From positions 1-33,687 of the forward strand of contig CALMRC010000165.1 of assembly GCA_937873275.1 (NCBI GenBank): a DNA stretch of 33,687 bases, written 5' to 3'. Shown piece by piece: positions 10,831-11,372 of this stretch (position 1 is the first letter of the stretch; every line of letters starts with the position of its first letter). A model generated the notes under the pieces. That model did no database searches and was not told the DNA's origin. It was given only the letters and a program-made list of their open reading frames with translations. Both the position numbers and the translations under genes were made by a program. The DNA comes from an uncultured Spirochaetota bacterium. Its GTDB lineage: Bacteria; Spirochaetota; Spirochaetia; Treponematales; UBA12059.

Positions 10831-10940
10831 TACGGAGAGTAGTCCTTCGAATCTTGGGACGCTCTTCCGCGGACGGACGGGTACGGATCGAGACTGTACC
10901 GATGTGCCCCATCGTCAGGCTCGAAGGTATCTTGGAGTGT

Positions 10941-10988
10941 ATGCAGATTTTGCTGCGCAAAATCTGCACGCGAGCGAGTCGGTCTTGA
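10941..10988 (+). repeat. Hairpin repeat, copy 1
   Basis: This is a 48-bp unit repeated at 11041 with three mismatches, exactly 100 bp apart start to start. It opens with a perfect 12-bp hairpin, TGCAGATTTTGC, loop TGC, GCAAAATCTGCA, and continues into CGCGAGCGAGTCGGTCTTGA. This copy lacks the second half of the hairpin that follows copy 2. The two differences in the first hairpin are both in its loop, so the stem is conserved. Confidence 0.85.
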
Positions 10989-11040
10989 TAAGCGGTAGGC
11001 GGAAATTCGCCAAGCGGGTGCTGGGAATGTTCTGGAAGGT

Positions 11041-11088
11041 ATGCAGATTTTGCCTCGCAAAATCTGCACGCGAGCGAATCGGTCTTGA
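11041..11088 (+). repeat. Hairpin repeat, copy 2
   Basis: The second copy of the 48-bp unit has the same 12-bp stem with loop CTC. Its 3' half is the left arm of a further hairpin reaching to the edge of tRNA-Glu. The bases before both copies are also similar (GGAGTGT and GGAAGGT). Confidence 0.85.
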
Positions 11089-11108
11089 CCAAGACCGATT
11101 CGCTCGCG
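11069..11108 (+). repeat. 19-bp-stem hairpin abutting tRNA-Glu
   Basis: CGCGAGCGAATCGGTCTTG (11069-11087) is followed, after the 2-nt loop AC, by its exact reverse complement (11090-11108). The right arm ends one base before the tRNA-Glu 5' end. In RNA this stem would sit on the RNase P site, so it could guide or impede 5' processing. It could also be part of the repeat element. Confidence 0.85.
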
Positions 11109-11109
11109 A

Positions 11110-11181
11110 GGCCCCTTCGTCTATCGGTTAGGACAAAAGATTCTCAATCTTTAAAGAGGGGTTCGACTCCCCTAGGGGCTA
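11110..11181 (+). tRNA. tRNA-Glu (anticodon CUC)
   Basis: The acceptor GGCCCCT pairs with AGGGGCT (first pair G-T), the anticodon stem AAAGA with TCTTT around loop TTCTCAA, and the T stem AGGGG with CCCCT around TTCGACT. The loop gives anticodon CTC, reading GAG. The discriminator is A11181 and no CCA is encoded. A Rho-independent terminator follows at once. The T arm and acceptor strand (11161-11179) recur inverted at 11212-11230 and directly at 11352-11372. Confidence 0.9.
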
Positions 11182-11230
11182 AAAAGACCGGCGGAAGCCG
11201 GTCTTTTTTTTGCCCCTAGGGGAGTCGAAC
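11161..11230 (+). repeat. 70-bp near-perfect palindrome starting inside tRNA-Glu
   Basis: The 19 bases of the tRNA T arm and acceptor strand (11161-11179) are the exact reverse complement of 11212-11230. The A-tract, terminator stem and T-tract between them also pair. The whole segment therefore folds into one long hairpin with loop GGAA, broken only by a 2-nt length difference between the A and T tracts. Confidence 0.85.
11186..11211 (+). terminator. Rho-independent terminator after tRNA-Glu
   Basis: Stem GACCGGC, loop GGAA and stem GCCGGTC are followed by eight T (11204-11211). Five A before the stem extend the pairing. It starts 5 nt after the tRNA discriminator. Confidence 0.9.
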
Positions 11231-11372
11231 GGGATTGCGCTCCGCTCAACCCTCGATCCTTTGAGAGGGTTGAGCGGTCGAGCGGCCACGGATGGACGCG
11301 AGAGCGCAATCCCCGGCCCGAAACGAGCGAACAGGAAGTTCGCGAGTGGAGGGTCGACTCCCCTAGAGGCTA
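11212..11372. repeat. Nested-palindrome cassette bounded by tRNA-Glu 3'-end copies
   Basis: Three inverted repeats are nested. The outer arms are CTAGGGGAGTCGA (11216-11228) and TCGACTCCCCTAG (11354-11366), the middle arms GGGATTGCGCTC (11231-11242) and GAGCGCAATCCC (11302-11313), and the inner arms CCGCTCAACCCTC (11242-11254) and GAGGGTTGAGCGG (11265-11277). A small dyad GCGAAC/GTTCGC lies at 11327-11343. The right end (11352-11372) copies the tRNA-Glu 3' end with 19 of 21 bases identical. No coding potential is evident. It could be a MITE-like element, an attachment-site remnant or a structured RNA. Its last bases overlap the stop codon of the neighbouring minus-strand gene. Confidence 0.75.

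Follow-up and report, generated by a model that had tools for sequence, protein, structure and literature searches.

Repeats linked to tRNA genes, the tRNA-linked repeats or TLRs, have been known in E. coli since 1978. In this bacterium, 22 units are distributed over ten loci, and the last 18-19 bp of each unit repeat the 3' end of the tRNA or rRNA lying upstream; as of 2021, the units still had no established function (PMC8144298). The elements rrA, rrB and rrF lie between dual terminators and are made by read-through. Their RNAs bind CsrA and Hfq in vitro, RrB binding CsrA via GGA motifs, and have no clear phenotype (PMC8144298). Conservation of rrA, rrB and rrF has been described within Enterobacteriales only, and the 19 E. 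coli TLRs located in tRNA operons obtain scores below 0.01 as CsrA binders (PMC8144298).

Here, we consider a 161-bp block located behind a tRNA-Glu gene of an uncultured Spirochaetota bacterium (GCA_937873275.1, contig CALMRC010000165.1, forward strand). The window, that is the whole stretch of DNA that was analysed, comprises 33,687 nt. A preliminary description had regarded the block either as a small non-autonomous element or attachment remnant targeting a tRNA gene, or as a structured RNA. The block belongs to a widespread family of spirochaete units, of which it is one copy; it is not a stray scar of a mobile element, and this family is very likely TLR-like in its membership.

The unit behind tRNA-Glu(CTC)

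Three nested perfect inverted repeats, of 13, 12 and 13 bp, had been noticed between two copies of the tRNA-Glu end, one inverted and one direct, and both reading of the sequence and a repeat search confirm them. The outer repeat (11216-11228/11354-11366) is contained within a 17-bp pair of arms having one mismatch, the middle one occupies 11231-11242/11302-11313 and the inner one 11242-11254/11265-11277. When the block was shuffled 2000 times with dinucleotides preserved, only 2 of the shuffles contained even a single perfect inverted repeat of at least 12 bp. As an RNA, the block is predicted to fold with -101.3 kcal/mol, versus -62.1 +/- 4.1 kcal/mol for shuffled sequences (z = -9.6), none of 200 shuffles being as good. 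The full unit extends beyond the 161 bp. It is made of the tRNA end (T), a terminator hairpin (h), the inverted end (T'), a core and the direct end (T), with the following features.

11110..11181, + strand: tRNA-Glu, anticodon CTC (ARAGORN; Rfam RF00005, 57.9 bits)
11160-11181, + strand: template sequence T, the last 22 nt of tRNA-Glu(CTC)
11181..11208, + strand: h, terminator-like hairpin (AAAAAGACCGGC/GCCGGTCTTTTT) directly 3' of the tRNA, a 12-bp perfect inverted repeat with a T-tract
11206..11230, - strand: T', tRNA-Glu 3' end in inverted orientation, forming the 5' arm of the outer helix P1
11227..11354, + strand: core, match to covariance model R1 (72.8 bits, E 4e-10)
11231..11313, + strand: P2, stem closing a three-way junction, arms 11231-11242 and 11302-11313 (repeats, fold, covariation)
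11242..11277, + strand: P3 hairpin, 13 bp, loop 11255-11264 (repeats, fold)
11282..11299, + strand: P4 hairpin, loop ACGGAT, GGA at 11290-11292 (sequence, fold)
11323..11349, + strand: P5 hairpin, loop AGGAA (11333-11337), closing C-G, tandem GA/GA below (fold, covariation)
11351..11372, + strand: T, tRNA-Glu 3' end in direct orientation, forming the 3' arm of P1, 20/22 nt identical

The inverted copy T' is 96% complementary to 11161-11185 and pairs with the tRNA end across h; together, h, T' and the tRNA end form one near-perfect palindrome of 70 bp. In the direct copy, the last 19 nt are identical to tRNA-Glu at 18 positions, with one mismatch, and the last three letters, CTA, read on the opposite strand as TAG, the stop codon of a convergent 409-aa ORF. 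In most relatives, h is the first of two terminators flanking a unit and is found duplicated around the units. In the window, the second terminator is absent and the convergent gene follows. The P3 hairpin is insertion-prone across the family and is longer in the window copy.

Upstream of the tRNA, region 10933-11108 contains a 56-nt direct repeat (10933-10988 and 11033-11088) with a TGCAGATTTTGC palindrome. The last part of the repeat region is a 40-bp palindrome (CGCGAGCGAATCGGTCTTG/CAAGACCGATTCGCTCGCG), immediately adjacent to the 5' end of tRNA-Glu, and no further copy of this repeat was found in the same genome. In two congeners (G001 and G002), a palindrome of different sequence occupies the same site at the 5' end of tRNA-Glu (L016, L017).

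A family of folded cores with arms copied from the host tRNA

The block is multi-copy and conserved, as indicated both by a nucleotide search of relatives and by a covariance model. The DNA search covered 59 related genomes. The tRNA-Glu arrangement recurs in many of them, often in tandem, and many weak matches adjoin the 3' ends of other genes: tmRNA, tRNA-Leu, Cys, Asn, Ala and a second tRNA-Glu. At each of these host genes, the outer arms are a copy of the end of that gene. Model R1 was built from 14 cores without their arms. With E up to 1, it retrieves 11 units in the genome carrying the window, all of them downstream of a tRNA and on the same strand (Val, Leu three times, Met twice, Glu, Ala, Cys, Pro and Lys); most other tRNA genes examined in this genome have no unit. 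Among the relatives, units occur in 40 of the 59 genomes, with up to 19 per genome. Across the phylum, 41 of 296 genomes contain units at E up to 1e-4, mostly within the same order. A called tRNA is located upstream of 61 of 79 units from the relatives, at a median of 62 nt, and several of the other units are found at tmRNA ends (L031, L060) or at contig edges. The general layout may be written tRNA(T)-h-[T'-core-T-h]n, where h is often duplicated and where an array contains 1-3 units.

The idea that the outer arms derive from the tRNA, put forward for the window copy, holds there and in the family, where the end of each unit's own tRNA is copied. In 41 of the 61 units with a called tRNA, all 13 acceptor-end bases of the T arm are those of the unit's own tRNA. 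Over the same 13 bases, the T' arm is exact in 11 cases, and the match to other isotypes averages 7.0 bases. Thus, T is more conserved than T', as it is in E. coli, in which T defines the family.

The core spans about 110 nt. P2 closes the junction holding P3 and P4, P5 comes next, and a tandem GA/GA step tends to occur in each hairpin. In an alignment of 79 units, 90% of the cells pair and two-sided changes are observed in 27 of 28 pairs, with a covariation score of 0.578 versus at most 0.096 for slid partners. Because this alignment was fitted to the model, the analysis was repeated on a plain MAFFT alignment using sequence only; two-sided changes are then seen in 21 of 28 pairs, and the score is 0.491 versus at most 0.166. 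Furthermore, G.U cells are in excess over A.C cells (52 versus 20, p = 2e-4), which points to selection on an RNA of the tRNA-sense strand. The suggestion of a structured RNA is thereby well supported, by the covariation as well as by the G.U/A.C asymmetry.

Conserved loops of the family are of the ANGGA/ASGAN type. The P4 loop reads CA(N)GGATG and contains GGA in 72 of 78 units. The P5 loop is most commonly CAGGA(T/C/A)G, or else CACGANG, and has GGA in 53/78; the loops without it, about a third, mostly carry ACGA. In P3, GGA is found in only 9/78 units. The window unit has two GGA hairpin loops. Separately, a second small hairpin element of about 65 bp (CCGTCGTGCGCGATAGCGCGCA...CTCGGCAAACGGAGCGAAGCGACGTATG) is nested within some TLR units, inside P4, P5 or T' (L043, L045, L078, L016, L051 and L057), and it has further copies in the genome carrying the window (C56:8733-8800, C198:6420-6476 and C43:1967-2029).

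Turnover of the units and competing explanations

An orthologous tRNA locus devoid of the unit exists at tRNA-Glu(TTC). There, the genome carrying the window (G000) has one T-h stretch and no unit, and in congener G001 a unit is present between two T-h stretches, the flanks being homologous (82-84% identity). Congeners also differ in the number or class of cores at tRNA-Val, Met and Glu(CTC). These differences are compatible with insertion but also with deletion or duplication between the T-h repeats. For 22 of 56 cores, the nearest neighbour is found at the same tRNA in a different genome (8.4 expected), and for 3 of 56 it is found in the same genome but at a different tRNA (2.8 expected). 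This comparison favours inheritance at the same tRNA and gives no support to recent hopping between tRNAs. A small non-autonomous mobile element, the earlier notion, may be kept as a possible origin of the family, but no signature of hopping was found among the nearest-neighbour cores.

Several models may be envisaged. The units could be selfish mobile elements targeting tRNA 3' ends, the T/T' arms and the duplicated T-h resulting from an insertion process in which the target is copied; the fold would then be the substrate of some enzyme, or an intermediate. This model would account for the recurrence of a single core at many tRNAs and at tmRNA, each time with fitting arms, for filled and empty sites in congeners with a duplicated T-h stretch, for tandem arrays of 1-3 units that differ between congeners at one tRNA, and for degraded-looking copies (L054, L055). 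However, the nearest neighbours show the same-tRNA excess across genomes and lack the between-tRNA excess within a genome. Moreover, no ORF-bearing partner was found among the loci read; a look for an ORF-bearing version at tRNA loci having T' but no nearby T (L097, L107) gave only truncated units. Deletion between T-h repeats explains empty sites equally well, and at tRNA-Glu(TTC) a unit is present in another family member too (L046). Finally, the covariation and the G.U bias on the tRNA-sense strand imply selection on RNA. Altogether, selfish behaviour appears unlikely as the explanation of the units. Less probable still is a purely DNA-level role, or a role as terminator or insulator arrays, in which strong bidirectional hairpins would stop transcription after tRNAs without any RNA product. 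The 70-bp palindrome and the additional hairpin usually found after each unit would suit such a role, but it would not call for a conserved three-hairpin junction, tandem GA steps and ANGGA/ASGAN loops, and it would leave the G.U-biased mispairing unexplained.

The block might also be imagined as the attachment remnant of a phage or island once integrated at tRNA-Glu. Judging from the sequences, tRNA-Glu is an integration site in this group: in L023 the tRNA end is directly followed by an integrase-like ORF, and in L013 such an ORF adjoins the unit. Nevertheless, the same core is present at many tRNA types and at tmRNA with matching arms at each, including tRNAs without an integrase, and an attachment remnant would yield neither an inverted copy nor a conserved folded core. 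As a general explanation it is refuted by the distribution over many tRNAs, and we consider that it has almost no chance of being correct for the block. In one genome, an integrase-like ORF sits directly behind tRNA-Glu where the TLR is absent (L023, G008:C31), and a TLR with tRNA-Glu arms stands alone on another contig (L041, G008:C6); an island that integrated behind tRNA-Glu, at its end, has probably displaced this TLR. In another genome, the 3' half of tRNA-Met and a TLR occur twice, about 10.7 kb apart and with similar upstream sequence (L240 and L246, G001:C12), and the pair resembles the termini of an island integrated there.

The explanation that we prefer is that of a spirochaete TLR unit, in which a structured core is closed by the P1 helix of inverted and direct copies of the tRNA 3' end, is transcribed with the tRNA and acts as an RNA. 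We consider this full description rather likely. The position behind tRNAs, the tRNA-specific arms, the covarying fold, the GGA loops and the turnover of units at orthologous sites are established here, and a function of the unit as an RNA is probable. By analogy with E. coli rrA, rrB and rrF, RNA polymerase would sometimes read through terminator h, the unit would be transcribed together with the tRNA, and the tRNA-like 3' end (T) would direct 3' processing. With less certainty, the GGA hairpin loops may bind CsrA, in which case the RNA of the unit would track tRNA synthesis and titrate CsrA. Units may multiply or vanish via recombination between the direct T-h repeats.

Comparison with CsrA-binding RNAs and with E. 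coli tRNA-linked repeats

The genome carrying the window encodes CsrA, and the units carry several GGA motifs in hairpin loops, as would a CsrA-titrating RNA. Co-occurrence of CsrA and TLRs has p = 0.018 in the 59 relatives and p = 0.15 across the phylum sample. In one family, TLRs and CsrA are absent together in 8 of 8 genomes, which at first seemed striking. However, six of the eight form one clade in the RpoB tree (read with rows G000, G056 and G036 left out and with G053 having no RpoB), and they may therefore reflect one event. Genome G255, 99% complete, has TLRs and no CsrA match. Since co-occurrence is weak given phylogeny and since the E. coli TLRs of tRNA operons are not predicted to be binders, CsrA, although the likeliest ligand of the unit RNA, is proposed tentatively, with more doubt than confidence. 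The likeness to RNAs of the CsrB/RsmX type concerns the hairpins with GGA loops, the P5 loop CAGGA(T/A/C)G corresponding to the CsrB repeat, and a sub-threshold Rfam match to RsmX (E 0.38) at one TLR unit of the genome carrying the window. Unlike these RNAs, the spirochaete units have about two GGA loops each, are dispersed over many loci and are tied to tRNA genes; no promoter of their own was identified in them, and they fall far below the Rfam thresholds.

At the E. coli tyrT locus, three annotated RtT units follow tRNA-Tyr, and a short inverted arm, GGGGAAGGAT, is visible in their sequence. The word 'inverted' is absent from the 2021 TLR paper (PMC8144298). Over 5 kb at tyrT, on both strands, the best three matches of R1 are the RtT units, and over 1 kb around rrnB its best match is rrB (E 0.026). 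Because these scores are low, 6-11 bits, common descent of the cores is suggested but not proven. The Rfam RtT model (RF00391), which gives 121-134 bits with the E. coli positive control (L235), has no match at E up to 5 in spirochaete loci L012, L042, L031 and L035; nor was RtT matched in the window at the gathering threshold. At gathering and relaxed thresholds, the core matched no known Rfam family. As the family shares the defining features of TLRs, with a low-scoring likeness of the core and no RtT match, we call it a spirochaete variant of TLRs. The preliminary description had not recognised the block as a described element. This is correct for spirochaetes in the literature searched, where queries by motif sequence and by spirochaete tRNA repeats returned nothing relevant, but the kind itself is already known from E. 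coli, the term 'tRNA-linked repeat' being used in only two papers there.

Other hairpin repeats were met in the course of these comparisons. In Gammaproteobacteria outside Enterobacterales (Rheinheimera, Nevskia, Woeseiaceae, Rhodanobacter and Dokdonella), GAGGCGCAGGATGCGCCGAG-hairpin repeats lie at or inside tRNA genes (L160, L134, L172, L122, L121, L136 and L181). They are accompanied by partial tRNA duplications, and the GGA loop is antisense to the tRNA in several. Structured repeats whose TACAGGGATGTA and GCGCATGGATGCGC loops resemble CsrA sites are scattered in large numbers over the genomes of Enterobacter, Silvania and relatives (L120, L137, L141, L156), more than 10 copies being present in one E. 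hormaechei genome; there was no tRNA nearby in those checked, and no Rfam match in L120 and L137. It is tempting to imagine TLRs as a bacteria-wide class parasitising tRNA genes, with arms rewritten to the host tRNA and a CsrA-binding RNA, so that stable-RNA synthesis at multiple loci sets the level of free CsrA. The gammaproteobacterial units at tRNA genes would then join the same class. So broad a proposal seems distinctly unlikely to be right as a whole.

With a strongly diverged family in spirochaetes, TLRs are no longer a peculiarity of E. coli and can be approached comparatively. The conserved features, namely the 3' tRNA copy, the ANGGA loops and the dual terminators, point to tRNA-like 3' processing and possibly to CsrA, and orthologous filled and empty loci are available for the study of gain, loss and effects on tRNA expression.

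Compared with RrA, RrB and RrF, the spirochaete units have tRNA or tmRNA hosts instead of 5S rRNA and possess an inverted arm that is not seen there; CsrA binding is demonstrated for the E. coli RNAs (PMC8144298) and is a prediction in spirochaetes. Both kinds stand between two terminators, reached by read-through, which is presumed in the spirochaete case, and both repeat the stable RNA's 3' end in direct orientation and have GGA hairpin loops; R1 aligns CGGCCCGGAGG and the subsequent GGGCAGGACGCCC hairpin with its P5 region. The resemblance to E. coli TLRs, RtT included, extends to the location directly behind tRNA (or 5S) genes on the same strand, to tandem units (one to five per locus in E. 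coli, 1-3 per array here), to a structured RNA and to the end of each unit, which duplicates the 3' end of the gene upstream. With the tyrT units, the likeness includes the short inverted arm (GGGGAAGGAT/ATCCTTCCCC), a CGAGCGnnnGCGAG hairpin and GGCCCGAAGGG. Set against E. coli TLRs, those of spirochaetes show a more complete inverted arm and a conserved core of three hairpins, two GGA loops included; a terminator precedes each unit and usually another follows it, and the hosts comprise many tRNA isotypes as well as tmRNA.
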